Virus record (IMG/VR): IMGVR_UViG_3300031673_000271
Coordinates: 1-33,874 of that record
DNA from: a virus
Direction: 5' to 3' (one strand)
Length of the DNA: 33,874 nt
In this document: in pieces, positions 241 to 18,223 of the stretch
Layout: each line of letters opens with the position of its first letter
Position numbering within the stretch: the stretch's first letter is position 1
Notes under the pieces: model-generated
Told to the model about the DNA's origin: nothing
The model's input: only the letters and a program-made list of their open reading frames with translations
The model's database searches: none
Position numbers and translations under genes: made by a program

Positions 241-275
241 TTATATTATCGATTTTAGTTCGTATTAGTTTTGTA
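241..275 (-). promoter_or_regulatory. Putative early promoter P1 (35-nt element, copy 1 of 6)
   Basis: Read leftward the element is TACAAA, six bases, ACGA, seven bases, then TCGATAATATAA. The same blocks with identical spacing occur at 1492-1526, 2213-2247, 2544-2578, 2623-2657 and 3199-3233. This copy overlaps the last codons of the gene ending at 265 and lies just upstream of the gene starting at 219. Promoter function is inferred from its recurrence, orientation and position before genes. It does not fit the host TAnnTTTG minus-7 box. Confidence 0.7.
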
Positions 276-492
276 AAATATGTATTCCGCTACTGTTATA
301 GTTCCATACTTTAGTGTGCGAGTGAGTTTTACCTTTAGTTCCAGCTCCTTTAACTTTCACCTTAATACTTTTGTATTGTTTGTCGGTTACTCCGCTACAA
401 GATCCACCTTGCTTAACAACATTGTTGCGGTGCACTGCATTTGCTTTTTTCTGGTTTGCAACGTATTCGCACGCTTCTTTCATAGTCATCAT
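265..492 (-). CDS. Hypothetical small basic protein (75 aa)
   Basis: The product is not recognised. It is Lys/Gly rich in its C-terminal half (KVKVKGAGTKGKTHSH) and strongly basic, so nucleic-acid binding is possible but unproven. It begins at an ATG overlapping the TGA of the upstream gene (ATGA), which suggests translational coupling. ATG codons at 489 and 483 are alternative starts. It is the last gene of the leftward operon that starts downstream of the promoter-like element at 1492-1526. Confidence 0.6.
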   Translation of the reverse strand: MMTMKEACEYVANQKKANAVHRNNVVKQGGSCSGVTDKQYKSIKVKVKGAGTKGKTHSHTKVWNYNSSGIHILQN

Positions 493-671
493 AGTGTTCT
501 TTTTAGTTCGTCTTTAATTCTTTGTATATCTTCGTCACTTATTTCTTCATCAGAGGAAAAGTTATCTTCTCTTTCAAATAATACACTTAATATGGCGTCA
601 TGAAAGTGGGCACCTATTATATCGTCTAAGCGATCCGCTATTGCTGATATTTCTTCTTTAGTTAGGTTCAT
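489..671 (-). CDS. Hypothetical small acidic protein (60 aa)
   Basis: The product is not recognised. It is an acidic, mostly helical small protein (runs such as EREDNFSSDEEISDEDI). It is preceded by an ATAACTATG leader without a Shine-Dalgarno sequence, as in the neighbouring genes, and its TGA overlaps the next start at 492. It belongs to the same leftward operon as the genes between 265 and 1475. Confidence 0.6.
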   Translation of the reverse strand: MNLTKEEISAIADRLDDIIGAHFHDAILSVLFEREDNFSSDEEISDEDIQRIKDELKRTL

Positions 672-673
672 AG

Positions 674-916
674 TTATTTATTTATAGTTACTTCAACCCA
701 GCCTTTTTCACTGTGACTAGCGTATACATTTAATCCGTCTTTAGTTAAGATTTCTTCCAACTTTTCCGCTGCTCGCCAAAGACTTGGTTCTGGCATTTGA
801 TCGTGCTCGTCGTCGTACATTACTTCGCCTCTACACTGGTAGAACACATCGTCTACATCATTTTCTACTAATTCAAAGTTCCAACCGTTTACGGCAATAT
901 AGTCATTTAATTTCAT
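674..916 (-). CDS. Hypothetical small protein (80 aa)
   Basis: The product is not recognised. It is acidic in the middle (MYDDEHDQMPEP), followed by an amphipathic helix (SLWRAAEKLEEILTKDGL) and a terminal beta-like strand (GWVEVTINK). Its ATG overlaps the upstream gene's stop by 4 nt and the gene ends 2 nt before the next start region, so expression is probably coupled. No catalytic motif is visible. Confidence 0.6.
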   Translation of the reverse strand: MKLNDYIAVNGWNFELVENDVDDVFYQCRGEVMYDDEHDQMPEPSLWRAAEKLEEILTKDGLNVYASHSEKGWVEVTINK

Positions 917-1122
917 ACTTGTTCAGTTTTAAAGGTTGATGGGAATTTATTCACCATATACTTTGCTAAACCTAATCCTTCGTTTGCATTGTTTGCAATG
1001 TGATTAGCGATCTTATCTTGCATTTCGAATAAGTCATCTTGACAATATTGGTCACATAAGAAGAATCTATCTCCACCCATTAATTCGCATAGTTCGTCTA
1101 TGAATTCTACATTTTTACTCAT
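913..1122 (-). CDS. Hypothetical small protein (69 aa)
   Basis: The product is not recognised. It contains two cysteines close together (FLCDQYCQDD) and is otherwise helical and acidic. The start at 1122 follows an AAATAAATAATTATG leader. It overlaps the following gene by 4 nt. It is a member of the leftward early operon. Confidence 0.6.
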   Translation of the reverse strand: MSKNVEFIDELCELMGGDRFFLCDQYCQDDLFEMQDKIANHIANNANEGLGLAKYMVNKFPSTFKTEQV

Positions 1123-1128
1123 AATTAT

Positions 1129-1254
1129 TTATTTATTTTTGTGTTTAGTTTTTCTAGTATATTGTTTCTTACTTTTCTGAACATTACCGCGCATCGCCAT
1201 CCATATCTCTTGGATAGTGAATTGAGTAGTTTTTAATTTATTTTCTTTGTTCAT
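1129..1254 (-). CDS. Hypothetical micro-protein (41 aa), basic
   Basis: This is a short open frame read directly from the minus strand: an ATG at 1252-1254 with the recurrent ATAACTATG leader, and a TAA at 1129-1131. The product begins MNKENKLKTTQF and ends in a very basic tail (KSKKQYTRKTKHKNK). It overlaps the previous gene by 17 nt in another frame and ends 7 nt before the next start, the same packing seen throughout the operon. The product is not recognised. Confidence 0.5.
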   Translation of the reverse strand: MNKENKLKTTQFTIQEIWMAMRGNVQKSKKQYTRKTKHKNK

Positions 1255-1387
1255 AGTTATTAGTGTTTATATAGAAGTCAATTCTTTCTTCAACTTCGTC
1301 TCGAGTGATCTCACCCGTCATTTGCTTTAATATATCAGTAGACATATCGATCCGTTTTCCGTTAGGACAAGTTAGTATAAATTCCAT
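1238..1387 (-). CDS. Hypothetical small protein (49 aa)
   Basis: This is a short open frame on the minus strand starting MEFILTCPNGKR and ending in TAA at 1238-1240. It lies 1 nt from the upstream 28-codon gene and overlaps the downstream gene by 17 nt. The sequence is plausible as a folded mini-protein (an N-terminal strand, then a helix ITRDEVEERIDFYI). The product is not recognised. The tight packing between two other genes supports it being real. Confidence 0.5.
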   Translation of the reverse strand: MEFILTCPNGKRIDMSTDILKQMTGEITRDEVEERIDFYINTNNYEQRK

Positions 1388-1388
1388 A

Positions 1389-1475
1389 TTATCGTTTTAT
1401 AGAATGTATAGCACTTGCAATTTCTTTTAATTCTGTTAGTACTAGTAGTACATAGTGATTGAATTTTGTTTTCAT
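1389..1475 (-). CDS. Hypothetical micro-protein (28 aa)
   Basis: This is a 28-codon frame with the AAACTATG leader used by its neighbours. It is the first gene after the promoter-like element at 1492-1526. The product is one amphipathic or hydrophobic helix (YVLLVLTELKEIASAI). Because it is so short it could be a leader peptide rather than a functional protein. Support comes from its position between a promoter and an operon, and from the one-base gap to the next gene. Confidence 0.4.
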   Translation of the reverse strand: MKTKFNHYVLLVLTELKEIASAIHSIKR

Positions 1476-1491
1476 AGTTTATTTGTTACGT

Positions 1492-1526
1492 TTATATTAT
1501 CGAATTTTATTCGTGTTTTGTTTGTA
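1492..1526 (-). promoter_or_regulatory. Putative early promoter P2 (copy 2 of 6)
   Basis: It has the same block pattern as P1, and ACGA is again exactly seven bases before TCGATAATATAA. It is followed by a GTAACAAATAAA leader that is also found after P3-P5 in near-identical form. It drives the seven-gene leftward operon 1475 to 265 (inference). Confidence 0.72.
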
Positions 1527-1531
1527 TTTAT

Positions 1532-1693
1532 TTATACCGATTCCCAAAAGAGATCGCGTTGTTCACTAGTTAAACCTTTTAGGTTTTCTTGACCGAACAG
1601 GTCAATACAGATTTTAGTTCGTCTTTTTGATTCGTTAAATTCGTGAGTAACTTCATCCCACGCTTGTTGGTTAGTTTGGTATTTTCTATACAT
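1532..1693 (-). CDS. Hypothetical small protein (53 aa)
   Basis: This is a minus-strand frame from an ATG at 1691-1693 to a TAA at 1532-1534, beginning MYRKYQTNQQAWDE. It is charged and helical with a C-terminal LTSEQRDLFWESV. The stop lies immediately before the promoter element P2. It follows the tRNA-like element and is probably co-transcribed with it and the 105-residue gene from P3. The product is not recognised. Confidence 0.5.
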   Translation of the reverse strand: MYRKYQTNQQAWDEVTHEFNESKRRTKICIDLFGQENLKGLTSEQRDLFWESV

Positions 1694-1716
1694 TATATTA
1701 TTATTTTAATTATTAG

Positions 1717-1795
1717 TTGAAGTGTGAGAATCGAACTCACTTTACTGGAACTACTATCTTCTAAACCGAAAAGAGTTCTAAAACCGTTACTTCAT
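1717..1795 (-). tRNA. tRNA-like element (acceptor and T-arm only; cloverleaf incomplete)
   Basis: Read leftward, a TGAAGT stem pairs with ACTTCA 77 nt apart. Next to it is a textbook T-arm: GTGAG, loop TTCGATT, CTCAC. The middle does not make a standard cloverleaf. The best I can fold is a TCTTTT/AGAAGA stem with a six-base CGGTTT loop, and a competing GAACT/AGTTC pairing. The D-arm lacks the expected GG, the variable region would be about 16 nt, and no CCA is encoded. It may be a divergent or decayed phage tRNA, a tRNA mimic, or part of a larger RNA with the hairpin at 1796-1826. No anticodon can be called with confidence. Confidence 0.38.
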
Positions 1796-1826
1796 AGTGT
1801 TTTCTCCCTATAACCGTGGAAACACT
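1796..1826 (-). ncRNA. Stem-loop directly 5' of the tRNA-like element
   Basis: AGTGTTT and AAACACT form a perfect 7-bp stem around a 17-nt loop that can close further through CC/GG. Read leftward it precedes the tRNA-like element with no gap, and it lies just after the stop of the 105-residue gene. It could be an intercistronic processing site or part of a composite structured RNA. The loop carries TATAGGGAGA, the start region of T7-class promoters, which may be coincidence. Confidence 0.4.
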
Positions 1827-1849
1827 TAAACACCGCAAAAGTAGTTAGA

Positions 1850-2167
1850 TTACTTCACTTCATCTAACTCTACTACCTCAATAACCGTTGTTCTAACAGA
1901 ACTTGGCATATTAGTACTCTGAGACCAATAACCCCTCTTAATCCAACAAGGCATGATATTTAGTTTAGGTAACATTACCTTTAACACTTCATCGTGATTG
2001 TAAGTGATCTTTTGGTTTTTGTTGTTAACAAAAGTTATTACTTGATTTCTACCTAACCAACTTTTTCTTACTACGAAGTTTTTTCGTTCAATAGGTGGGA
2101 AGATTAAAGATTTTTCTTCATTAGACATTTTCGCAATTGCGTTGGTAATTAATTCTTGATTGTTCAT
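1850..2167 (-). CDS. Hypothetical protein (105 aa)
   Basis: The product is not recognised. It is the largest protein of the leftward block. It has an N-terminal helical part (TNAIAKMSNEEKSLIFPP) and a likely beta-rich middle (KNFVVRKSWLGRNQVITFVNNKNQKITYNHDEVLKVML). It contains a single cysteine (MPCWIKRGYW) and has no membrane segment. The ATG at 2167 follows a long AT-rich leader with TTATTATTATTA repeats downstream of the promoter element at 2213-2247, making it first in its operon, followed by the hairpin, the tRNA-like element and the 53-residue gene. Confidence 0.65.
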   Translation of the reverse strand: MNNQELITNAIAKMSNEEKSLIFPPIERKNFVVRKSWLGRNQVITFVNNKNQKITYNHDEVLKVMLPKLNIMPCWIKRGYWSQSTNMPSSVRTTVIEVVELDEVK

Positions 2168-2212
2168 AATTTACTGTTTTTATTTATTATTATTATTATT
2201 TATTTGTTACAT

Positions 2213-2247
2213 TTATATTATCGAATACTACTCGTATTTAGTTTGTA
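2213..2247 (-). promoter_or_regulatory. Putative early promoter P3 (copy 3 of 6)
   Basis: TACAAA, six bases, ACGA, seven bases, TCGATAATATAA, read leftward. It is followed by TGTAACAAATAAATAA and then the 105-residue gene. Spacing is identical to the other five copies. Confidence 0.72.
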
Positions 2248-2340
2248 AGTTTTATTCTATGTGGGTGGTAATGTGTTATGAGTTTATTTTGTAAGCTCTG
2301 CCATTACTCTCTACCTCGCTCTCTCTTATTCCTTTAAAAA

Positions 2341-2387
2341 AGGTGACAATAGGGTGTTATATTACTATAGTAGTAGGCTATCGTCGC
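2341..2387 (-). repeat. Dyad element copy A (of three)
   Basis: This is an imperfect inverted repeat with arms at 2343-2352 and 2378-2387 (about 9 of 10 pairs including a wobble) and a 25-nt AT-rich centre. Read on the minus strand it begins GCGACGATAGCCTACTACTA. It aligns with copy B (minus strand) and copy C (plus strand) through a shared core GYGACRRTAGCCTRYTACTA and a distal CTAYTGTCRC arm. It lies 3 nt beyond the stop of the 43-residue gene, so it could end or process that transcript, or it could be an operator. The bases from 2248 to 2340 show nothing else recognisable. Confidence 0.6.
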
Positions 2388-2390
2388 TGT

Positions 2391-2522
2391 TTAGAACTCA
2401 TTATGGGTTAACCATGTGTACATTGCATTCTCAGTGTACTTTATTTCTAGTTCACTTTGTTTTACTAGATCTTTTGATTCTTCAGCGGAGTATCCTAACT
2501 CCATCCATTCAGTTACATTCAT
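2391..2522 (-). CDS. Hypothetical micro-protein (43 aa), acidic
   Basis: This is a minus-strand frame from an ATG at 2520-2522 to a TAA at 2391-2393, starting MNVTEWMELGYSAEE. It is acidic and helical and is not recognised. It follows the tandem promoter elements at 2544-2578 and 2623-2657, with an AACAAATAACAATATG leader. The stop is 3 nt from dyad element A. The promoter-gene-hairpin layout supports it being a real monocistronic unit. Confidence 0.5.
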   Translation of the reverse strand: MNVTEWMELGYSAEESKDLVKQSELEIKYTENAMYTWLTHNEF

Positions 2523-2543
2523 ATTGTTATTTGTTTGTTACAC

Positions 2544-2578
2544 TTATATTATCGATTTGACTTCGTATTAAGTTTGTA
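2544..2578 (-). promoter_or_regulatory. Putative early promoter P4 (copy 4 of 6)
   Basis: Standard blocks and spacing read leftward. It contains TAATACGA followed seven bases later by TCGATAATATAA, and is followed by GTGTAACAAACAAATAACAAT before the ATG of the 43-residue gene. It forms a tandem pair with P5, 44 nt upstream. Confidence 0.72.
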
Positions 2579-2622
2579 AAGATTATTTAGTTAATTTAGT
2601 TATTGTTATTTGTTTGTTACAT

Positions 2623-2657
2623 ATATATTATCGAAAACCGATCGTGTTAGGTTTGTA
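2623..2657 (-). promoter_or_regulatory. Putative early promoter P5 (copy 5 of 6)
   Basis: Standard blocks and spacing read leftward; the last block is TCGATAATATAT here. Its leader, TGTAACAAACAAATAACAAT, is almost identical to that after P4. No gene lies between the two copies, so this looks like a duplicated tandem promoter for the gene at 2391-2522. Confidence 0.68.
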
Positions 2658-2723
2658 GAACTTTCGGTGCTATACATGCTATACATAGTGTAGGACGGAG
2701 TCTACTCTTCCGGTTCTGTTTCA

Positions 2724-2747
2724 AGACCAGGCTAATAGTAGGGGTCT
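2724..2747 (-). terminator. Possible small stem-loop after the 46-aa gene
   Basis: AGACC and GGTCT are separated by 14 nt, about 10 nt after the stop codon of the leftward gene ending at 2758. There is no U-tract, so intrinsic termination is doubtful. It is recorded as a candidate transcript-end or processing hairpin. The rest of 2658-2757 shows no gene. Confidence 0.25.
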
Positions 2748-2757
2748 GATCAGCTGG

Positions 2758-2898
2758 TTAAGCCGATGTCCCGAATGCTTCGATCGCTCGAGCCGTGCGC
2801 TCTTGATCATCAGTCCATATGTGTGGAACTTGATTGATCCAGAATGCTGATTCGTATGTTGTCCCGTCAGGACGTGTTACAGTTTTTAATTTATACAT
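2758..2898 (-). CDS. Hypothetical small protein (46 aa)
   Basis: This is a minus-strand frame from an ATG at 2896-2898 to a TAA at 2758-2760, beginning MYKLKTVTRPDGTTYES. The N-terminal half looks like a beta hairpin and the C-terminal half is a charged helix (DDQERTARAIEAF). It lies 13 nt after the 87-residue gene and is probably co-transcribed with it. Both are clearly more GC-rich than the genes further left, suggesting separate acquisition. The product is not recognised. Confidence 0.5.
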   Translation of the reverse strand: MYKLKTVTRPDGTTYESAFWINQVPHIWTDDQERTARAIEAFGTSA

Positions 2899-2911
2899 GC
2901 TCGTATTTTTG

Positions 2912-3175
2912 CTATTTTTTCGCATATTTAATTTTTATAATTGCTTGATATAAAGCCATGCAAGCATCTGTTGCAGCCTCAAGCGTTACGTTGCCTTCCA
3001 GATACTGGTTCAGCTCATCGATCGTTGCCAGCACGTTAGCCCTTGTCTGTTGGCTGATCGCATTACGTTTGTTAGCCTGTGCGAATAACGCCTGAGCATA
3101 CGGCTTAGTGTAGCCTTCTGCGATCCAGTCTGCGATCGATCTGTTAGGCGCGTTGTAATTATCTTCTGTAGTCAT
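2912..3175 (-). CDS. Hypothetical helical protein (87 aa)
   Basis: The product is not recognised. It is predominantly helical (IADWIAEGYTKPYAQALFAQANKRNAISQQTRANVLATIDELNQYL is read as two or three helices split by loops) with a basic C-terminus (IIKIKYAKK). A small DNA- or protein-binding role is possible but unsupported. It starts at an ATG preceded by TATAACAGACC and lies downstream of promoter element P6. Its codons are richer in G and C than those of the rest of the leftward block. Confidence 0.6.
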   Translation of the reverse strand: MTTEDNYNAPNRSIADWIAEGYTKPYAQALFAQANKRNAISQQTRANVLATIDELNQYLEGNVTLEAATDACMALYQAIIKIKYAKK

Positions 3176-3198
3176 GGTCTGTTATATTTTAGATTCGT

Positions 3199-3233
3199 AT
3201 ATATTATCGGTAACGCATCGTATTACGTACGTA
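3199..3233 (-). promoter_or_regulatory. Putative early promoter P6 (copy 6 of 6, most divergent)
   Basis: ACGA and CCGATAATATAT keep the exact seven-base gap, and TAATACGA is intact, but the upstream block is TACGTA instead of TACAAA. It precedes the genes at 3175 and 2898. It marks the left edge of the divergence region between leftward and rightward transcription. Confidence 0.6.
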
Positions 3234-3694: not shown

Positions 3695-3738
3695 GCGACA
3701 GTAGGTAGTTATATATAATAGTAATAGGCTATTGTCAC
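3695..3738 (-). repeat. Dyad element copy B (of three)
   Basis: Arms at 3695-3704 and 3729-3738 pair imperfectly around a 24-nt AT-rich centre. On the minus strand it starts GTGACAATAGCCTATTACTA, matching copies A and C. On the plus strand the 12-mer AGGCGACAGTAG is identical to copy C. It lies 65 nt upstream of the first rightward gene, next to an AT-rich tract, so it may be an operator or part of the promoter for the late rightward genes. Confidence 0.6.
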
Positions 3739-3802
3739 GTTTTGAGTATGTAAAAACGGTAAAAAGCATGTAAATATGCTTAATATATATAATACAATTA
3801 GT

Positions 3803-4075
3803 ATGGCTAAGCAAAAATTGAGTGCAACGGCTGCGGCAGCGAAGAAGAAGCGGGACTTACGTTATGCAAATTCGTCAGATCGCAAGGACAAGAGGGCTGA
3901 TAGCCAAAAAAAGAGGAGGGAAGCTGTTAAAAAGCATGGTGCAAACTGGTTGGTAGGTAAAGACTTTGATCATAACACCGGTAGATTTGTAAATTCTTCC
4001 CATAACAGGGGAGGAACGCAATCAAGAAGCAAAAAAGACGGTACTAAAGCAGAATACAAACAACGTAAAAAATAA
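3803..4075 (+). CDS. Small, very basic hypothetical protein (90 aa)
   Basis: This is a Lys/Arg-rich, largely disordered protein (AAAAKKKRDLRYANSSDRKDKRADSQ) ending with a GKDFDHNTGRFVNSSHNRGGTQSRSKK segment. Comparable short basic proteins occur in other Bacteroidota phages, but I know no function. DNA or virion binding is plausible from the charge. The ATG at 3803 (MAKQKL) is preferred over the in-frame ATG at 3776, which would add nine residues encoded by the AT-rich leader. It is the first gene of the rightward block, just after dyad element B. Confidence 0.65.
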   Translation: MAKQKLSATAAAAKKKRDLRYANSSDRKDKRADSQKKRREAVKKHGANWLVGKDFDHNTGRFVNSSHNRGGTQSRSKKDGTKAEYKQRKK

Positions 4076-4086
4076 AACAAACAAAA

Positions 4087-6027
4087 ATGGCATTAATTTA
4101 TACATATCCACCTATAGGGAGCATTGAGGACGCAGATTTGCTATTGGTAAGTGATGTAAGCTTAGCTAGCAACGCTACAAGGAACATGGACTTAGGTACA
4201 TTCGCTTCTTATATTATTACAAGTAGAAATATTATAACAGGAACGGGTACCTTAAACGCCTTACCTGTATTTACAGGTCCTACAACTATTGGAGACTCTG
4301 TAATGACAAAAGTTAATGGTGGTTTACAAATTGCTGGTGGCTTAACTATAACTGATTTCCTTATAGCTGACGGAGGCGTTAGATTATTAGGCTCTACGCC
4401 TTTTAGTGCAAACATTCTCAATGTAAACGGAACAACAAATTTAAACGGGAATGCAAATGTAAGCGGAGGTGCTTTTATAGAGGGTAGTTTAACCGTTGAA
4501 GGTATAGGTGCGTTTGACGATAACGTAACTATAGAGGGTAATAGCGTTTTAAACGGTACACTTGCTGTTAGTGGCACTTCTGTTTTAACAGGAGCGGTTA
4601 CTACAAACGCAATTACAGTTAATGGAGCATCGACTTTTAATGCAGATGCTTTGTTTGAAGAAAAAGCAGAATTCCAAGGAGCCGTAGCGGATAGCCAAGG
4701 TAACGTTGGTACTGCTGGTCAAGTATTAAGTTCTACTGTCAGTGGAGTTCAATGGGTTACTGACGAAGGAGGTAATGTTACAGGTACAGGAAATAACCTA
4801 ACGGCAGCTATGTGGCTTGGTGCAACCCCTTTTAATGTAAGTTCCATTGCGACATCTCCACTTTCTTTTAAAGTAGTAGGCACAGACCCGTCGAATATTT
4901 ATAGCTTACAATTTGGAACAAACTCTGTAGCTTCAGGAGACTTTAATTCAGTAGCGCTTGGATACGGAAACTTGGCATCTGATAAATCAACAATAGCAAC
5001 AGGGTTTGGCACAACAGCAAGTGGCCTTCATTCTGCTAGTTTTAACTTTGAAACAATTGCAAGTGGTCAAAAGTCCGCTGCATTTGGAGGTGAATCAGTA
5101 GCTTCTGGTAGTTCGAGTTTTGTTGTTGGATTACGAAACACCGCTGCTACAAGTAATGCTTTTGCTGGTGGATTAGATTCTACCGCTAACCCGTCATTAA
5201 ACGGATCAAGTGCTTTTGCTTATGGTAACGCTTTAAATGTTACAGGAGAGGATGCAGCTAGTTTTGGAAAAGGGAACAGTGTTTCCGGGGCATATTCCTT
5301 TTCTGCAGGATTTGGAAATACTATTAGTAATGCGTATAGTTTTGCTTTAGGGCGACTTAATAGTGTTCAATCAATCCAGTCTTCTGCGATTGGAACAGGC
5401 AATACTGTCTCAGGCTTTCGAAGTCACGCAATAGGAGTTTCTAATGCGGTAGATACTCAGAACAGTATCGCTGTTGGTTCTTTTTTAGTTACAGGAAGCT
5501 TAGACCAAGTGGTTGTTGGAAGATATAATAGGTTAAGAACCTCTGCAGTATTTGTTGTAGGTAATGGTGATAGTGGTAACCAAAATAATGCAATTGAAGT
5601 TTATGCTAATAATATAAAAATACCAGATTACGGGAGCGGGGCTCGAACCGGGGACGCTGCGTATAACTTACAAGTTGATGCAACTGGTAAAATAATTGAA
5701 ACACAAGCTGCAGGTGATTACAAAGAGGTAGTTGCTCTTATTAACCAAGTTGGTATTCAAGCCCCAACAACACAACTTACTTTATCGAATACACTTGGGG
5801 TTGCGCTGCCTCTTACGTGGACAAGAATTTCTACGGGAGTATATAATCTAAATGCTCCAGGAAAGTTTCACTTAAACAAAACAATAGTGTTTGCAAACAA
5901 TGGCAGCCAGCTAGAGACTTTTAATGTATCTTGGCAAGTTATTGACGTTGATAATTTACGTATACAAACATTTGGAGGGGATAACCAGCTTACAACAGCT
6001 GCAATAGAAATAAGAACTTATATATAA
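4087..6027 (+). CDS. Adhesin-like tail or head fibre with left-handed beta-roll repeats (646 aa)
   Basis: This is probably a trimeric fibre mediating host attachment. Residues about 1-70 form an N-terminal part (IGSIEDADLLLVSDVS) likely to anchor to the virion. Residues 70-240 are NG/TG-rich beta repeats (VNGTTNLNGNANVSGG, FIEGSLTVEG). Residues about 275-490 carry degenerate 14-16-residue repeats of the type SVALGYGNLASDKSTIATGFGTTASG split over several turns, the YadA/Hia head-like LbR fold. The C-terminal 100 residues are a non-repetitive beta domain. There is no signal peptide. It is followed 4 nt later by a small tail-associated gene. The fibre role is inferred from the repeat type; whether it sits on the tail or the head is unknown. 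Confidence 0.7.
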   Translation: MALIYTYPPIGSIEDADLLLVSDVSLASNATRNMDLGTFASYIITSRNIITGTGTLNALPVFTGPTTIGDSVMTKVNGGLQIAGGLTITDFLIADGGVRLLGSTPFSANILNVNGTTNLNGNANVSGGAFIEGSLTVEGIGAFDDNVTIEGNSVLNGTLAVSGTSVLTGAVTTNAITVNGASTFNADALFEEKAEFQGAVADSQGNVGTAGQVLSSTVSGVQWVTDEGGNVTGTGNNLTAAMWLGATPFNVSSIATSPLSFKVVGTDPSNIYSLQFGTNSVASGDFNSVALGYGNLASDKSTIATGFGTTASGLHSASFNFETIASGQKSAAFGGESVASGSSSFVVGLRNTAATSNAFAGGLDSTANPSLNGSSAFAYGNALNVTGEDAASFGKGNSVSGAYSFSAGFGNTISNAYSFALGRLNSVQSIQSSAIGTGNTVSGFRSHAIGVSNAVDTQNSIAVGSFLVTGSLDQVVVGRYNRLRTSAVFVVGNGDSGNQNNAIEVYANNIKIPDYGSGARTGDAAYNLQVDATGKIIETQAAGDYKEVVALINQVGIQAPTTQLTLSNTLGVALPLTWTRISTGVYNLNAPGKFHLNKTIVFANNGSQLETFNVSWQVIDVDNLRIQTFGGDNQLTTAAIEIRTYI

Positions 6028-6424: not shown

Positions 6425-7981
6425 ATGACTGACAAAATTGTTAAGAATCTTAACTTTGGCGATGAAGCCAAGGATAAGGTTTTTTCTGGAATAGAGAAAC
6501 TTACAAAAGCCGTTAGCTCTACACTTGGAGCTAGTGGTAAATGTGTTATCTTAGAAGACCATACGGGTCAACCTATTATAACAAAAGACGGTGTGACAGT
6601 AGCAAATTCAATAACGCTATTAGATCCTGTAGAAAACATAGGTGCAACACTTATTAAACAAGCTGCACAAAGAACAGTTAGCGAGGCTGGTGACGGAACA
6701 ACCACTGCAACAGTGCTGGCGCACGCCATCTTAAAGAAGGCATATAAAGCGCTTAAGTCACATAGTGCTCGTAATATAAAAGAAGGTATAAACCTAGCGG
6801 TTACTAAGGTATGTAAGCTACTTGAGAAAAACTCTATACCGGTAACCGGGGAGATGATTAATCAAGTTGCTACAATCTCAGCAAACAACGATGCTGAGCT
6901 AGGAACTATTATAGCTGATGCTTTTAAAGCAGTTGGTAACAACGGGATAGTTATAATGGAAACTTCGAATGAATCTGAAACCACAACAGAAGTTGTCGAT
7001 GGAGTACAGTATGACAAAGGATTAAAAAACTTTCATTTTGTAAGTAACAAAGACACAGGTGTTTCTGAATTAGAAAACCCATTAGTTTTAATAGTAGAAT
7101 CAGAAGTATCTAATATTAGAAAGATTCAAAGTGTATTAGAACATGTTATTAAAAACAAGCGAAGTCTTTTGATAATCGCAGACGTTGGCTTAGAAGTGTT
7201 GAATGCACTTGCTATGAATCACGTTAAAGGAAATATTAAAGTTAACGTCATTGACGCACCTACTTACGGTGTTACAAGAAAAGAAGTTATGCAGGATTTA
7301 GCTTTATTAACTGGAGCTACTGTTATAAATGAAAGTCTTGGTGATGATATGGATTTAATACAACCTGAATATTTAGGTGAGTGTTTAAAATCAGTTACAA
7401 ACAACGAGGAAACAATTTTACAAATTGGCGAGCCTAGTAAAGAAGTTGAAGAACTTACTATCCAAGTTAGGAAGCAGCTTGAAGAAGCTACACTTGCGGG
7501 TTATAAAATTCGATATGAAAAAAGACTTGGACGTCTTTCTGCTAAAGTAGCTATTGTTAAAGTTGGAGCAAACTCGGAAGTAGAACTAAAAGAAAAGAAA
7601 GATAGAGTTGAAGACGCTATCTGTGCTACAAAAGCCGCAATAAAAGAAGGAATCGTTCCAGGAGGAGGTATCGCTTTGCTGAATGCGTATATGAGTATAA
7701 AAGCTAAGAGTGAAGGTGAAAAAGTTTTGCTAGAAGCAATCAAAGCACCTTACGAGGCAATTCTTATAAATGCAGGTCTTGATATAGTTTACCCTCAAGT
7801 AAAAAACAGAGGACTAAATGTGGTTACAGGAAAAGACGTAAATATGGTACGAGCAGGGATTATAGATCCACTACTGGTAACTAAGAGCGCTTTAAAAAAT
7901 GCGGCTTCAGTAGCTACTACAATAATTTCAACCGATTGTGTAATCAATAACTTAAGAGTAGGAGATGAAAGCAATAGGTAA
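6425..7981 (+). CDS. groEL: GroEL-type chaperonin (518 aa)
   Basis: This is a group I chaperonin that folds proteins in an ATP-driven ring with GroES. All three domains are present, so it is not a fragment. ATP-site landmarks are kept: TKDG (D55, equivalent to GroEL D52), GDGTTTAT 89-96 (D90, equivalent to D87), VED with D397 (equivalent to D398), and PGGG at 412-415. The usual TLGPKG is TLGASG at 33-38, so the loop contacting ATP is altered. The Gly-Met tail is missing, since the protein ends INNLRVGDESNR, which explains most of the difference from the usual ~545 residues. It overlaps groES by 17 nt, and the order groEL-groES is reversed from the bacterial operon. It probably serves folding of phage structural proteins. 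Confidence 0.97.
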   Translation: MTDKIVKNLNFGDEAKDKVFSGIEKLTKAVSSTLGASGKCVILEDHTGQPIITKDGVTVANSITLLDPVENIGATLIKQAAQRTVSEAGDGTTTATVLAHAILKKAYKALKSHSARNIKEGINLAVTKVCKLLEKNSIPVTGEMINQVATISANNDAELGTIIADAFKAVGNNGIVIMETSNESETTTEVVDGVQYDKGLKNFHFVSNKDTGVSELENPLVLIVESEVSNIRKIQSVLEHVIKNKRSLLIIADVGLEVLNALAMNHVKGNIKVNVIDAPTYGVTRKEVMQDLALLTGATVINESLGDDMDLIQPEYLGECLKSVTNNEETILQIGEPSKEVEELTIQVRKQLEEATLAGYKIRYEKRLGRLSAKVAIVKVGANSEVELKEKKDRVEDAICATKAAIKEGIVPGGGIALLNAYMSIKAKSEGEKVLLEAIKAPYEAILINAGLDIVYPQVKNRGLNVVTGKDVNMVRAGIIDPLLVTKSALKNAASVATTIISTDCVINNLRVGDESNR

Positions 7982-8225
7982 AAATATAATTATAAAGAAA
8001 ACAAAAGAAGGGACCACCACTACGAAGGGTGGTTTACTTCTGGCTGAGAATCAAAGAGAGGATATACGTTATACAGAGGCTGTAGTGGTTTCTGTTGGTA
8101 ATGAAGTAGTAGGAGTACAACAACAAGACGTTATATATTATGATCGCCATGCTGGTCACAAAATTGAATTTAACGGAGATCTATTCGATGTCATTAAAAT
8201 GCAAGATGTTGTAGTTGTAGTATGA
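7965..8225 (+). CDS. groES: GroES-like co-chaperonin (86 aa)
   Basis: This is a co-chaperonin that caps the chaperonin ring. It starts MKAIGKNIIIKK as in GroES (RPLHDRVIVKR). It has a mobile loop at about residues 14-32 with a hydrophobic LLL in place of the usual IVL (KGGLLLAE), then the beta-barrel pattern EAVVVSVGNE and DVIYYDRHAGHKIEFNGDLFDVIKMQDVVVV. At 86 residues it is slightly shorter than cellular GroES (about 97). Its start lies inside the last codons of groEL and its TGA overlaps the next ATG, so the three products are probably coupled. It presumably partners the adjacent GroEL, giving the phage a self-sufficient pair. Confidence 0.92.
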   Translation: MKAIGKNIIIKKTKEGTTTTKGGLLLAENQREDIRYTEAVVVSVGNEVVGVQQQDVIYYDRHAGHKIEFNGDLFDVIKMQDVVVVV

Positions 8226-8641
8226 GACGCTTAGAGGTATCTGATTTGCGCTCTTTAAATGTTTTAAAGCATTACCGCATAATTAGAAAATGGAGTGCTA
8301 AAACGCACGGCTTACAAGAGGCGGATTTAGAACTGCTAGTGTACTTTGATTGCTTAGACCACTTCACAAGAAACGATTATAAAATAGGTGTGCTTGCATA
8401 TAGCTGGGATAATAAAAGATGGAATAGACTTTTAAAAGAAGGCTGGATTAGCGTGTGGAGAAAAAGAAATCATACAACACAAAAGTACCATATATACAAA
8501 ACTTCTTTTAAGTGCAGACAAATGATTACACGCATGTATAAGATGTTGCTAAATGAAGAAGAGATACCTTTAATTAAAAATCCTAAAACGTATTCAGAAC
8601 GAGCGTTAGGATTGGCTATAAAAAAAATAAATTATGAATAA
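8222..8641 (+). CDS. Winged-helix-like protein, possible regulator (139 aa)
   Basis: The protein looks like a MarR-type winged helix: helices in residues 1-60 (HYRIIRKWSAKTHGLQEADLELLVYF), a recognition-like stretch (YSWDNKRWNRLLKEGWISVWRKRN) and a beta wing (QKYHIYKTSFKC), then a helical C-terminus. Similar genes occur in Bacteroidota phages, but the target is unknown. It is basic, consistent with DNA binding. It overlaps the groES stop by 4 nt (ATGA) and the next gene by 8 nt. It may regulate late genes, or it may be a virion protein. The fold call is moderate and the role is inferred. Confidence 0.5.
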   Translation: MRRLEVSDLRSLNVLKHYRIIRKWSAKTHGLQEADLELLVYFDCLDHFTRNDYKIGVLAYSWDNKRWNRLLKEGWISVWRKRNHTTQKYHIYKTSFKCRQMITRMYKMLLNEEEIPLIKNPKTYSERALGLAIKKINYE

Positions 8642-9215
8642 AACTCCTTTTTATAAAACCGGTTTAGACTTTGCGCTACCAGGTATTAAAGCTAAGCCAG
8701 TGACTGGATCTTCCGGGGTGCAAGATAACGGTGGAGGCGGTGGTGGTGCGAATTGGGATCAAGGACAGGTTGATCTTCAGTTGTCTCATGTTGCCGCATC
8801 GTTGGACCAAATAGCTAGGACGGACGGCAAAGACGACACTCGTTTACAGAGACGAATAGATAAAGCTACAAAGCAAGGTAAAGAAGACAAAGTAGCTAGG
8901 CTGCAAGGCAAGCAAGATCGTCAAGACGTTCGACAAAAATCAAGAGCTAAACGCGAAACGCAACGTAATGTGGAACGCGAAGAAGTAACGCAGGAAAGGC
9001 AAGATCGAAAAACACAAAGGTTTGAAAGTAGGAGAGTAGGGGCGGATGGTATATATGGAACTGATGATGATACCGCTCCGGTAAGTAGTGTTGGTATGTT
9101 GTTTGATAAAATTGGAGGATTGTTTAGAAAAGATGATAGTCCTGTTCCAATGAAGATGTCAGCCAAACAATACACTCAAGAGCAAAGAAATTCAAAAATA
9201 GCAAAAGATATATAA
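8634..9215 (+). CDS. Hypothetical basic coiled-coil protein (193 aa), candidate virion protein
   Basis: The product is not recognised. The N-terminus reads FALPGIKAKPVTGSS, then a poly-Gly stretch and ANW. The same arrangement (PAIKAARITG, Gly/Ser-rich, GGAANW) starts the long protein at 32896, suggesting a shared targeting or cleavage signal for virion cargo. Residues about 60-135 are a very charged helix (QRRIDKATKQGKEDKVARLQ). Residues 137-150 (ADGIYGTDDDTAP) look like a calcium-loop-type DGxYGTDDD motif. It starts inside the previous gene and ends 1 nt before the next ATG. Confidence 0.55.
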   Translation: MNKTPFYKTGLDFALPGIKAKPVTGSSGVQDNGGGGGGANWDQGQVDLQLSHVAASLDQIARTDGKDDTRLQRRIDKATKQGKEDKVARLQGKQDRQDVRQKSRAKRETQRNVEREEVTQERQDRKTQRFESRRVGADGIYGTDDDTAPVSSVGMLFDKIGGLFRKDDSPVPMKMSAKQYTQEQRNSKIAKDI

Positions 9216-13384: not shown

Positions 13385-13601
13385 GGAACTAATTAAAGTT
13401 GCCAAAGAAGCTATTGTTGATTCTGGAGAAGATATCACAGCGGATAGACTTAAGAATGCTGCAGCTACAAAAAAGCTAGCAATTTTTGACGCATTTGAAA
13501 TACTTAATCGTATCGAAGAAGAACAAGCAATACTTGATGGAGATAATACTGAAACAAGAGCCAAGTCTTTTAAAGGCTTTGCTGAAGGAAGATCTAAGTA
13601 A
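13329..13601 (+). CDS. terS: Probable terminase small subunit (90 aa)
   Basis: This small helical protein immediately precedes the large terminase and overlaps it by 1 nt (TAATG), the usual place of terS. It is composed of helices (NIIQAGQKAVEELIKVAKEA, ADRLKNAAATKKLAIFDAFE, ILNRIEEEQAIL). Comparable proteins occupy the same slot in related phages. It would bind the packaging site and recruit TerL. The start at 13329 lies within the previous gene; the ATG has an ATTAAGT leader. The assignment rests mainly on position and size. Confidence 0.55.
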   Translation: MSVKETKRNIIQAGQKAVEELIKVAKEAIVDSGEDITADRLKNAAATKKLAIFDAFEILNRIEEEQAILDGDNTETRAKSFKGFAEGRSK

Positions 13602-15811
13602 TGTACGAGCAATCATTATATAAAGTAATACCTGATCACATTAAAGCTAGTGTTATTAAGAAAAACAATAGATACAAAAAATGGGTTTATGGATACAACA
13701 AAGAATACGATGTTGTTGTTATAAGTAAGACAGGAGAGATTGGCGAAGTATATGAAATGCAAAACTTAAAAATAGCTTTGCCTAAAGAAGATGACACTCA
13801 CAAATTTAAAAAAGATAGATGGGAGCGATTAGATTACCCAAAAGATCTTGAAAAAATTAAAAGTGTTTCTGAGTGGAATTCAAAACCTGAATACTTTAAA
13901 GAAAACCATTATGATTACATTGATAAAGAATTTAATCGAAGGTCACAAGGCTTTTGGTTCTATAATAAAGGTGTGGCTACTTACATTACTGGTACTCACT
14001 TTATGTACTTGCAGTGGTCCAAGATTGATGTTGGGGCAGCAGATTTTAGGGAGTCAAACAGATTATTCTTTATATTCTGGGAAGCTTGTAAGGCAGACGC
14101 GCGGTGCTATGGAATGTCCTATCTTAAAAACCGTAGGAGCGGATTTTCGTTCATGTCCTCAGCCGAGACTGTTAATCTCGCGACAATTTCCTCAGATTCA
14201 CGATTTGGCATATTGTCAAAGTCTGGCTCTGATGCTAAGAAAATGTTCACAGACAAGGTGGTACCGATATCCGTCAACTACCCGTTCTTCTTTAAGCCTA
14301 TCCAAGACGGTATGGACAGGCCGAAAACCGAGCTTGCCTATCGTATTCCCGCATCCAAACTTACCAGGAAGAAGCTTGATCAAGGGGAAAAACTTGAGGA
14401 ACTTGAAGGATTAGATACAACTATTGATTGGAAAAATACAGGAGATAACTCCTATGATGGAGAAAAATTAAAACTACTAGTACACGATGAAAGTGGAAAG
14501 TGGGAAAGACCTGACAATATATTAAATAACTGGAGAGTTACAAAAACTTGTTTACGGCTAGGATCTAGAATTGTAGGGAAATGTATGATGGGTAGTACAT
14601 CAAATTCACTTGACAAAGGAGGTGAAAACTTTAAAAAACTTTACTATGCTTCAGATGTTACCAAGAGAAACCGCAACGGACAGACTAGCTCAGGATTATA
14701 TTCTTTGTTTATACCTATGGAGTGGAATTACGAAGGATTCATTGACTCTTATGGATTACCTGTATTCGATACACCCAAAGAAGATGTCGGGGGTCCTTAT
14801 GGGGAAAGTATAAATCAAGGAGTAATAGAGCATTGGCAAAACGAAGTAGATGGTTTAAAAAGTGATCAAGATGGTTTAAACGAATATTACCGCCAATTTC
14901 CAAGAACAGAGCAACACGCTTTTAGAGATGAAGCAAAAGAATCTTTGTTCAATCTAACTAAAATATACCAACAAGTAGACTACAATGAAGATTTAAGAAG
15001 TTCTAATGTAGTAACACGAGGAAGTTTTCATTGGGAAAACGGAATTAAAGATAGTAAAGTAATATTTTCTCCTAACAAAGATGGTAGATTTATTATATCT
15101 TGGATACCAAATAAAAACCAACAAAACCGCGTAATAATAAAGAACGGTATTAAATATCCAGGCAATGAACATATGGGTGCATTCGGATGTGATTCATACG
15201 ACATTTCAGGAACTACCGATGGTAAAGGTTCAAAAGGAGCATTACATGGTCTTACTAAGTTTAGTATGGAAGATCATCCGGCTAACACGTTTTTTTTAGA
15301 ATACATTGCAAGACCTCAAACTGCAGACATATTTTTTGAAGATGTTTTAATGGCTTTAGTATTTTATGGAATGCCAATACTTGCGGAGAATAACAAGCCT
15401 AGATTGCTTTATTATTTAAAAAGAAGAGGTTATAGAGGATTTTCAATGAATAGGCCAGACAGACTTTTAAACAAGCTATCTGTAACAGAAAGAGAAATTG
15501 GTGGAATGCCTAACTCTAGTGAAGATATTAAACAAGCACATGCAGCCGCTATAGAAGCATACATAGAAGATTATGTTGGCTTACAATCTGATGGCACTTA
15601 TGGAACAATGTATTTGCAAAAAACCCTTGAAGATTGGGGAAGATTTAATATAAACAATAGAACAAAGCATGATGCGTCGATTAGTTCTGGTTTAGCTATT
15701 ATGGCTTGCAATAAAAATAAGTACAGTCCAAGGGCTGAAAGAATAATAACATCCCACACTTTGAGTATTAAAAAATACGACAACAAAGGGTACAGTTCAA
15801 AAATAATGTAA
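13601..15811 (+). CDS. terL: Terminase large subunit, ATPase-nuclease (736 aa)
   Basis: This is the DNA-packaging motor. ATPase domain: a Walker A-like KNRRSGFSF (residues 177-185; Arg-rich, without the classic GKS/T), Walker B KLLVHDE (291-297; D296, E297), and a coupling-type GSTSN (331-335). Nuclease domain: acidic residues in GCDSYD (D531, D534), FFEDVL (E580, D581) and KHDASISSGLA (D691). Length and motif style fit Bacteroidota podovirus terminases, which are longer than T7 or lambda types. Codon use between about 14085 and 14400 (residues 162-267) shifts strongly to G/C-ending codons, unlike the rest of the gene. It overlaps terS by 1 nt and directly abuts the portal gene. Confidence 0.9.
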   Translation: MYEQSLYKVIPDHIKASVIKKNNRYKKWVYGYNKEYDVVVISKTGEIGEVYEMQNLKIALPKEDDTHKFKKDRWERLDYPKDLEKIKSVSEWNSKPEYFKENHYDYIDKEFNRRSQGFWFYNKGVATYITGTHFMYLQWSKIDVGAADFRESNRLFFIFWEACKADARCYGMSYLKNRRSGFSFMSSAETVNLATISSDSRFGILSKSGSDAKKMFTDKVVPISVNYPFFFKPIQDGMDRPKTELAYRIPASKLTRKKLDQGEKLEELEGLDTTIDWKNTGDNSYDGEKLKLLVHDESGKWERPDNILNNWRVTKTCLRLGSRIVGKCMMGSTSNSLDKGGENFKKLYYASDVTKRNRNGQTSSGLYSLFIPMEWNYEGFIDSYGLPVFDTPKEDVGGPYGESINQGVIEHWQNEVDGLKSDQDGLNEYYRQFPRTEQHAFRDEAKESLFNLTKIYQQVDYNEDLRSSNVVTRGSFHWENGIKDSKVIFSPNKDGRFIISWIPNKNQQNRVIIKNGIKYPGNEHMGAFGCDSYDISGTTDGKGSKGALHGLTKFSMEDHPANTFFLEYIARPQTADIFFEDVLMALVFYGMPILAENNKPRLLYYLKRRGYRGFSMNRPDRLLNKLSVTEREIGGMPNSSEDIKQAHAAAIEAYIEDYVGLQSDGTYGTMYLQKTLEDWGRFNINNRTKHDASISSGLAIMACNKNKYSPRAERIITSHTLSIKKYDNKGYSSKIM

Positions 15812-18223
15812 ATGGTATCAACTAACTATAATAGTTCATTTCCGGATCAGGTGGTACCTGAAGAGGTAAAGCAAAGTTTAGATTATGGCGTGCAAGTAGG
15901 ACAAGCTATAGAGAACGAATGGTTTAGAAATAATCGCTCCGGCGGTGACAGGTTTATGGCTAATTTTCAAAACTACCATAGACTTAAACTATACGCTAGA
16001 GGAGAGCAGTCAATACAAAAATATAAAGATGAATTAGCTATTAATGGTGATTTGTCTTATTTGAATTTAGACTGGAAGCCAGTGCCGGTAATAGCAAAAT
16101 TTGTAGATATAGTAGTTAATGGTATGTCGCAAAGATCATACGAGATACAAGCATTTGCTCAAGATCCAGAATCTTTGCAAAAAAGAACAAAATACGCAGA
16201 AAGAATAATGCGTGACATGATGGCTAAAGAGTTTCTAGACAAAGTTCAAGAGACTATGGAAGTTAATATGTACTCCACAGATCCAGAAAGTTTACCAAAT
16301 GACGTTAACGAACTCTCGTTAAAGATGCAGTTAGAGTTTAAGGAATCTGTTGAAATTGCTGAAGAGTCAGCTATCAACACTATTCTTGATAAAAATAGAT
16401 ATGACGAAAAAAGAAAGCGTGTTTTATACGATTTAGTTGTATTAGGTATTGGAGCTACAAAAACAAACTTTAATCCTTCTGAAGGAATTACAGTAGACTA
16501 TTGTGATCCAGCTAGTATGGTTTATTCGTATACAGAAGATCCTAACTTTGAAGACTTATATTATGTAGGTGAAGTAAAAACAATATCGCTTTCAGAATTA
16601 AAGAAACAGTTTCCTCAATTAACCTCAGAAGAATTAAAGAAAATACAATCTTGGGGTAACACACCAAATAATTATTTAAGAAATTGGAATGGTGGTGATA
16701 CAACAGATGATCAAATTAATGTTTTATATTTTGAATACAAAACATACCAGGATCAAGTTTTTAAAATTAAAAAGACAGAAGCTGGATTAGAAAAAGCATT
16801 AGAAAAGCCTGACACTTTTAATCCACCTAAGAATGACAATTTTGAAAGAGTAGGTAGATCAATAGAAGTATTATATAGTGGAGCTAAAATATTAGGTCAA
16901 AATAAAATGCTTAAATGGGAATTGTCAGAAAATATGACAAGACCTTTTTCTGATACTACAAAAGTTAAAATGAACTATTCAATTTGTGCACCAAGAATGT
17001 ACAAAGGTAGAATAAATTCTTTAGTAAGTCGCGTTACTGGATTTGCAGATATGATTCAGATTACGCATTTAAAAATGCAGCAAGTCTTATCTCGTATGGT
17101 ACCAGACGGTGTATATGTAGATGTTGATGGTTTAGCTGAAGTTGATCTTGGGAATGGAACTAATTATAATGCTGCAGAAGCATTAAATATGTATTTTCAA
17201 ACTGGTTCTATAGTAGGTAGGTCGTTAACTCAGGATGGAGATATTAATAGAGGTAAGATTCCAATTCAAGAGTTACAATCTTCTAGTGGACAAGCTAAAT
17301 TAAGCGCTTTAATAAGCACATATCAATATTATTTACAAATGATTCGTGATGTCACGGGCCTTAATGAGGCTAGAGACGGAAGTACTCCGGACAAATTTGC
17401 TTTAGTAGGGTTACAAAAAATGGCAGCTGCAAATTCAAATACAGCTACACGTCATATTTTGCAAGCTCAAATGTACATAACATTATCTACCTGTGAAAAC
17501 ATTGCATTAAGATTAGCAGATGCATTAGCTTATCCGCTAACAGCAGAAGCTCTCAAAAAATCTGTAAGCAATTACAACGTAGGAACTTTAGAAGAACTAG
17601 CTAGTTTGCAACTACACGATTTTGGTATTTTCTTAGAGTTAATGCCAGACGAAGAAGAAAGAGCTATGTTAGAAAACAACATTCAGACCGCGCTAGGCTC
17701 GGGGTTAATAGCTTTAGAAGATGCAATTGATATTAGAAATGTAGCTAATATTAAAACAGCTAACGAACTATTAAAAGTTAAACAGCGTAAAAAAGCTCAA
17801 AGAGACCAAGAAGCTAGTCAAGCTAACATACAAGCTCAAGCTCAAGCTAATGCCCAATTAGCGGAACAAACAGCAATGGTTGAAACACAGAAGCAACAAG
17901 TTATAACAGAACAAAAAATACAGTTAGAGCAAGCTAAAATGCAATTTGGCATTCAGAAACTACAACAAGAGGCTGAGATTAAAAAACAGTTGATGGGTAC
18001 AGAATTTGATTACAACATGCAGTTAGCGCAAGTGAATGCTCAGGCTCAAACAGGTAAAGAAAATAATAAAGAAGATCGTAAAGACGGTAGAGCAAAGTTA
18101 GTAGCTTCGCAACAAAGTGAGTTGATTAATCAAAGACAAAACAATTCACCACCAAAAAACTTTGAGTCCTCAGGTATGGATGTATTAGGAGGGTTTGGTT
18201 TAGAACAATTTGACCCTAAGTAA
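15812..18223 (+). CDS. Portal protein (803 aa)
   Basis: It forms the dodecameric portal through which DNA enters the capsid. It follows terL with no gap and has portal-like features: an N-terminal alpha/beta part, a long middle region with a crown-type stretch (MVPDGVYVDVDGLAEVDLG) and the stem-like segment RDVTGLNEARDGSTPDKFALVGLQ (split by loops). The C-terminus, residues about 655-755, is a Gln/Ala/Lys-rich coiled coil (QANIQAQAQANAQLAEQ), common in large Bacteroidota phage portals. Family assignment is by position, size and this architecture. Confidence 0.85.
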   Translation: MVSTNYNSSFPDQVVPEEVKQSLDYGVQVGQAIENEWFRNNRSGGDRFMANFQNYHRLKLYARGEQSIQKYKDELAINGDLSYLNLDWKPVPVIAKFVDIVVNGMSQRSYEIQAFAQDPESLQKRTKYAERIMRDMMAKEFLDKVQETMEVNMYSTDPESLPNDVNELSLKMQLEFKESVEIAEESAINTILDKNRYDEKRKRVLYDLVVLGIGATKTNFNPSEGITVDYCDPASMVYSYTEDPNFEDLYYVGEVKTISLSELKKQFPQLTSEELKKIQSWGNTPNNYLRNWNGGDTTDDQINVLYFEYKTYQDQVFKIKKTEAGLEKALEKPDTFNPPKNDNFERVGRSIEVLYSGAKILGQNKMLKWELSENMTRPFSDTTKVKMNYSICAPRMYKGRINSLVSRVTGFADMIQITHLKMQQVLSRMVPDGVYVDVDGLAEVDLGNGTNYNAAEALNMYFQTGSIVGRSLTQDGDINRGKIPIQELQSSSGQAKLSALISTYQYYLQMIRDVTGLNEARDGSTPDKFALVGLQKMAAANSNTATRHILQAQMYITLSTCENIALRLADALAYPLTAEALKKSVSNYNVGTLEELASLQLHDFGIFLELMPDEEERAMLENNIQTALGSGLIALEDAIDIRNVANIKTANELLKVKQRKKAQRDQEASQANIQAQAQANAQLAEQTAMVETQKQQVITEQKIQLEQAKMQFGIQKLQQEAEIKKQLMGTEFDYNMQLAQVNAQAQTGKENNKEDRKDGRAKLVASQQSELINQRQNNSPPKNFESSGMDVLGGFGLEQFDPK

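Follow-up and report, generated by a model that had tools for sequence, protein, structure and literature searches.

The stretch of DNA analysed here (IMG/VR virus record IMGVR_UViG_3300031673_000271, positions 1 to 33,874; hereafter the window) is a 33.9-kb phage fragment with genes for terminase, portal, virion proteins and GroEL. Ahead of its small leftward genes, a 34-nucleotide (nt) element with the pattern TACAAA-N6-ACGA-N7-TCGATAATATA occurs at six places, all on the minus strand (Table 1). By terminase and portal, the named relatives of this phage are phages of Flavobacterium, Cellulophaga, Tenacibaculum and Maribacter, together with MW202828, a genome from a spring metagenome, and from these relatives we infer a flavobacterial host and a podovirus form. 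The group that bears the element consists of phages of roughly 60 kb, represented here by metagenome contigs only.

Five of the window copies fit the pattern with 0 mismatches. The sixth has three, TACGTA replacing TACAAA and CCGATAATATA replacing TCGATAATATA. The plus strand has no copy even when three mismatches are allowed, and 100 dinucleotide-preserving shuffles of the window gave 0 matches. In four copies GTAACAAA follows directly downstream, and TAATACGA lies inside three. An earlier note on this DNA had described a rigid 35-nt element in six uniform copies, oriented with the leftward genes, missing from the plus strand and in four cases sharing the GTAACAAA leader. The six places, the orientation, the empty plus strand and, on reading the sequence, the leader all hold, but the length must be corrected to 34 nt, as the quoted ranges contain one extra base, and uniformity extends to the five exact copies, not to the sixth.

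An exact scan of IMG/VR viral contigs returned 108 stretches in 86 distinct contigs, the 50 longest of which (28.4 kb and more, some of them near-duplicates) form our detailed set. These 50 contain 372 copies at up to three mismatches, with 371 lying on one strand per contig and the exception found in a contig designated G049; the reversed pattern is not found in any of the 50. A relative of the window terminase is present in 49 of the 50, always on the strand opposite to the element copies, at 72-90% identity across the matched pieces save one short piece at 52%. When cellular genomes were scanned (one per species, 84,980 bacterial and archaeal species), a single exact hit was obtained, inside a reading frame on a contig of a metagenome-assembled genome, and this frame we take to be exonuclease-III-like. 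None of seven relatives, taken from 87 terminase-bearing records, has the element at up to three mismatches. Because 49 of 50 contigs share the terminase and the cellular scan gave one coding hit, the element is the signal of one phage group within the collections searched. The proposal in the earlier note of a phage-specific, directional, promoter-like element before leftward genes is supported by this distribution, and the motif search in related phages revealed no equal occurrence in both orientations or within late genes in the 50 contigs.

The free columns of the pattern add further structure. In 148 exact instances (143 in a recount that removed duplicates differently), AAY precedes ACGA and a purine stands 4 nt past the pattern; TAATACGA is simply one form of the resulting AAYACGA block. 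Every one of the 143 exact copies has this purine at its predicted +1, a column that played no part in selection. Selection on the measured columns was likewise avoided in a search anchored on GATAAT plus a downstream ATG, carried out in 80 loci around the sigma gene described below. Per column, agreement across its 318 unique sites is 74-84% for TACAAA, 72-89% for AAYACGA and 91% for the purine, with fixed offsets. The gap between TACAAA and GATAAT is 19 nt, which is longer than the 17 typical of sigma-70 promoters.

Placement relative to genes is equally regular. Six near-complete clade genomes and the window together hold 65 copies, 54 of which have an ATG no more than 60 nt beyond their end, as against 18% of random positions; the median distance is 23 nt. 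Summed over six clade genomes, GATAATA stands before 231 leftward genes 50 times and its reversed control 5 times; before 275 rightward genes, each is found 8 times. The element is very probably a promoter. TACAAA would be its -35-like box (about -37 to -32), the AAYACGA block an addition between the two boxes (about -28 to -22) and GATAAT(ATA) the -10 box (-12 to -7). Transcription would start at the purine 6 nt past the -10 box, leaving a median leader of about 17 nt before the start codon. A copy of the element stands before many of the small leftward genes individually. This role, the transcription start, the reading by a phage sigma factor and the timing are what we infer from sequence. 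An operator, a replication iteron or another protein-binding repeat could also be repeated, rigid and built of three blocks, and other repeated elements of regulatory appearance do exist in clade genomes and in a relative. However, the element is asymmetric, keeps to a single orientation, is dispersed at that median of 23 nt before start codons and has a -10-like box followed by a fixed purine, and we judge a role other than that of a promoter very unlikely.

The identity of the reader is less certain. The earlier note had seen in TAATACGA the beginning of T7-class promoters and had suggested looking for a single-subunit or giant RNA polymerase gene. The three copies do resemble T7 promoters in this string, but it belongs to the variable AAYACGA block and the remainder of the element is unlike the T7 consensus. 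Moreover, no T7-type polymerase was found in eight clade genomes (a set that does not include the window), with phage T7 as a positive control at 9.9e-110, and the T7-class reading was rejected on this ground. A cellular-type polymerase was not found either, with no Rpb1_2 domain in eight clade genomes and three relatives.

These two negative searches also bear on the possibility that the element is read by a virion-borne phage RNA polymerase, for example one hidden within the giant structural protein whose gene closes the late cluster. Such proteins are available: a giant open reading frame (ORF) of 2,518 to 4,044 amino acids (aa) is found in five of six near-complete clade genomes, four of the giant proteins align with each other and with a 3,859-aa protein of MW202828, and the relative elemoE has an 11-kb structural gene at a comparable place in its late cluster. 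A precedent exists as well, since tail-fused virion polymerases have been reported (PMC10770324). Nevertheless, a profile of the giant protein gave no polymerase match in the PDB at E<=5, and the giant structural protein has no conserved DxDxD. The promoters of the N4 virion polymerase form a hairpin in single-stranded promoter DNA. In contrast, the six window copies have hairpin z values of -1.78 to 1.01, five being above -0.1 (about -0.05 to 1.01) and without hairpin excess, and the sixth at -1.78. A virion-borne polymerase is thus an unlikely reader.

A different candidate is encoded by the group itself. In the 63.6-kb genome G029, the leftward genes carry 14 copies of the element at up to four mismatches, the last of them directly before a gene for a 252-aa protein, which lies at the distal end of the cluster that bears the motif. 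The protein matches phrog_351 (E 1.9e-23) and TIGR02937, the first member scoring 57.2 bits against a cut-off of 42.9 and all 59 of 59 aligned members matching at E<=0.01. At this same threshold Sigma70_r2 is found in 53 and Sigma70_r4 in 40 of the 59, with the first member just below the Pfam cut-off for both. Its best sequence match in the PDB is the sigma-28 factor FliA (E 4.3e-6). A predicted model (mean predicted local distance difference test score, pLDDT, 77; predicted template modelling score, pTM, 0.49) gave RNA polymerase or sigma entries for 50 of 50 among the Foldseek matches listed, and its region 2 superposes on FliA 1sc5 with a Z of 12.4 and 2.1 Å over 79 residues. Chains of sigma-70, sigma-S and sigma-28 are matched by VIA-align at tied Z, and the fold therefore offers no choice of sigma subfamily. 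Membership in the FliA/WhiG subfamily was rejected, the first member reaching 47.9 bits versus a cut-off of 189.6. By these matches the group encodes a predicted compact sigma-70-family factor of about 252 aa, for which tblastn against 50,697 phage records gave no match at E<=0.01. The earlier note had suggested a phage polymerase or a phage-modified host sigma factor as a possible reader; the relatives instead encode a sigma factor of their own.

We favor, with moderate confidence, the interpretation that the element is read by this phage-encoded factor, which would act on the host core RNA polymerase. The sigma gene is found in 33 of the 50 motif contigs, including one broken copy in G049. 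The 17 contigs without it also lack the neighboring Erf gene in a search that had no positive control of its own, and because this adjacent gene is missing too, these contigs are probably truncated at the sigma region. For example, the contig ends of genome G021 flank the missing sigma stretch by gene order. Among the seven relatives, which also have no copy of the element, Sigma70_r2 was detected in none, with G029 positive as a control. The 80 sigma loci together hold 322 copies at up to four mismatches, every one on the strand of the sigma gene; at five mismatches the counts are 42 on that strand, 0 on the opposite strand and 20 for a reversed control. The -35 box is mainly TACAAA, with TCGAAA or TCGAAT in L184-186, L188 and L192, TGCAAA in L197 and L204 and CACGGA in L193; the middle block varies among sigma loci as well, and the invariance of GATAAT in this search arises by construction.

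Several observations weigh against this assignment. The window itself has no sigma gene, its contig seeming to end before the sigma position. Among the Foldseek matches listed, TM-scores are low, about 0.3 by query. A single ancestral event may lie behind the co-occurrence of motif and sigma gene, and the contigs include near-duplicates. No copy at up to four mismatches is present in six of the 80 sigma loci (L181, L193, L196, L213, L216, L223), and one of these, L193, has variant boxes. The -35 variants require five changes on the sigma tree versus three and four on the primase and Erf trees (60 loci, six of non-main type; shuffles give about 5.9 changes). With region 4 of sigma, distance between -35 boxes shows no relation (partial r -0.11, p 0.92, 42 loci); it tracks the primase instead (p 0.007). 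Covariation with sigma is therefore not supported for the -35 box. Among the same 30 tests, a relation to region 4 was seen for the pair of bases preceding GATAAT (partial r 0.34, p 0.003) and, weakly, for columns 6-8 (0.09, p 0.04). Of the 80 sigma genes, 13 have a copy of the motif no more than 60 nt upstream and 24 no more than 900 nt upstream, and general self-activation of sigma was rejected on this count. In G049 (L257, about 8100-8860) nine element copies remain although the sigma gene is broken by several frameshifts, which may be a sequencing error or mark a pseudogene. Finally, the assignment does not account for the first sigma molecules or the first round of transcription.

Alternatively, the element could be a classical early promoter at which the host polymerase acts with one of its own sigma factors, and the phage sigma, made at the end of that cluster, would serve middle or late genes. 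The flavobacterial sigma-A promoter is TAnnTTTG, and the sigma set of Flavobacterium psychrophilum consists of sigma-A, sigma-54 and seven extracytoplasmic function factors (PMC9723704). As the earlier note had observed, the element lacks the TAnnTTTG box, with just 3 of the 143 exact copies having TTTG in register. The looser TATAWWTG, close to the host box, is found at the 3' end of 79 of 143, and because of this a weak host reading of the element is possible; one copy in genome G037 continues into TATATTTG. In G029 the sigma gene lies downstream of the motif array, where a gene expressed early would be expected. Most sigma genes also lack an element copy of their own, and in the phages phiEco32 and 7-11 transcription from host promoters comes first (PMC4331800).

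Host-type boxes elsewhere in these genomes give a mixed picture. In six clade genomes, TAnnTTTG is slightly more common before the 231 leftward genes than in the reversed control (11 versus 5) and is not so before the 275 rightward genes (11 versus 13); several of the plus-strand matches in the clade are the reverse complement of the element itself. The corresponding counts are 15 versus 1 for 37 late genes and 3 versus 2 for 35 others in MW202828, 10 versus 5 and 9 versus 3 for late and other genes in elemoE, and 3 versus 0 and 2 versus 4 in a 50-kb part of phi40:1. Host-type boxes are thus scarce before leftward genes and unenriched before rightward genes in the clade. Moreover, when the late strands of two clade genomes, G029 and G013, were tested, no word pair rose clearly above shuffles, and no clear late sigma motif emerged on which a middle or late role of the phage factor could be based. 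The exact TTTG is nearly absent in register, the host sigma set beyond sigma-A comprises, in F. psychrophilum, only sigma-54 and the seven extracytoplasmic function factors (PMC9723704), and the element is absent from the one-per-species cellular genomes, the one coding hit aside. We regard reading by a host sigma factor as rather improbable.

If the phage sigma does read the element, the leftward genes cannot be the very first to be transcribed, unless sigma is carried in the virion or supplied by leaky expression from another promoter, and their timing should be described as "early or middle". A more specific, and doubtful, possibility is that a private sigma regulon has largely replaced host-read promoters in the leftward cluster, the first sigma being virion-borne or leaked through the TATAWWTG end, such that one element would serve both the host and the phage holoenzyme. 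If true, these proposals would supply a predicted gene-expression program for a group of which the 50,697 phage records searched include no member with the sigma gene, as well as a compact sigma factor and a defined promoter for in vitro work.

Other repeated signals occur in these genomes. An imperfect inverted repeat of 40-42 bp, GACNNTAG ... AT-rich center ... CTANNGTC, is present at two places each in the window and in four of six clade genomes (in G029 at 4402 and 58802) and at one in genome G012; by the pattern used, none was found in G021, elemoE, MW202828 or the 50-kb part of phi40:1. In the 15 cases listed for first late genes, the end of the repeat lies 36-73 nt ahead of an ATG, and the repeat is a candidate late promoter or regulator site. 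The 40-bp inverted repeat is likewise found at the start of the gene for a 206-aa HTH_11 protein directly upstream of the G029 sigma gene (L121:18186-18806:-). MW202828 has 15 copies of TGTCG..A.CGACA, 14 being TGTCGTTAACGACA, among its rightward small genes; by annotation, eight of these 14-bp palindromes are intergenic and seven overlap genes. The comparison suggests that related lineages have switched the signal before the same kind of gene cluster, with a sigma-type element here and a 14-bp palindrome in MW202828. In the first 50 kb of phi40:1 (L258), a AACACTATCAAAA-like string occurs on the minus strand upstream of 7-9 of 59 leftward genes. The window also carries a GroEL-type chaperonin gene at 6425-7981, within the rightward gene cluster, and has no RNA families at gathering score and no tRNAs.

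Table 1. Coordinates of repeated elements and marker genes; positions refer to the window unless another record is named.
Feature	Position	Strand	Remarks
Element copy 1	242..275	minus	exact; then small ORF, ATG at 219
Element copy 2	1493..1526	minus	exact; then short ORF, ATG at 1476; GTAACAAA leader
Element copy 3	2214..2247	minus	exact; upstream of ORF 1850-2167 (105 aa); GTAACAAA leader
Element copy 4	2545..2578	minus	exact; then short ORF, ATG at 2522; GTAACAAA leader
Element copy 5	2624..2657	minus	exact; tandem, 45 nt upstream of copy 4; GTAACAAA leader
Element copy 6	3200..3233	minus	3 mismatches; upstream of ORF 2912-3175 (87 aa)
Imperfect inverted repeat, 41 bp	2345..2385	none	GACAATAG ... 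CTATCGTC
Inverted repeat, second copy, 40 bp	3697..3736	none	leader of first rightward late gene, ORF 3776-4075
Terminase large subunit	13601..15811	plus	opposite to elements; clade marker; phrog_6681, E 4.1e-162
Portal protein	15812..18223	plus	second marker of relatives; phrog_6547, E 2.1e-140
Palindrome repeats of MW202828	L115 43746-49888; L116 (MW202828 43746-55168)		

In a literature search that left most subscription papers outside, we found no paper on promoters or RNA polymerase of Cellulophaga or Flavobacterium phages or on a flavophage sigma factor, and the words sigma, promoter and RNA polymerase are absent from the text of PMC8776804. Promoters of FliA, or sigma-28, have a -10 box of GCCGATAA and a -35 box of TAAA, which resemble the CGATAAT and CAAA of the element at similar spacing. 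To our knowledge, however, they have no counterpart of the AAYACGA block, and the sigma factor described here falls far under the FliA/WhiG cut-off. With the flavobacterial sigma-A promoter (PMC9723704) the element shares a -10-type sequence a short way before the gene and differs in TTTG, found in 3 of 143 copies. The closest parallel in organization is provided by phiEco32 and 7-11, in which structural genes occupy one strand and functional genes the other, and whose sigma factor, distantly related to sigma-A, acts at tAATGTAtA promoters that drive middle and late genes, host promoters being the first ones used (PMC4331800). The two-strand layout, the phage sigma and a phage-specific promoter motif upstream of genes are common to both, whereas here the element is confined to the functional strand, is composed of three blocks and is accompanied by host-type promoters that look scarce. 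Phage sigma factors with promoters of their own are thus already known, and the element would be a group-specific variant of this arrangement.

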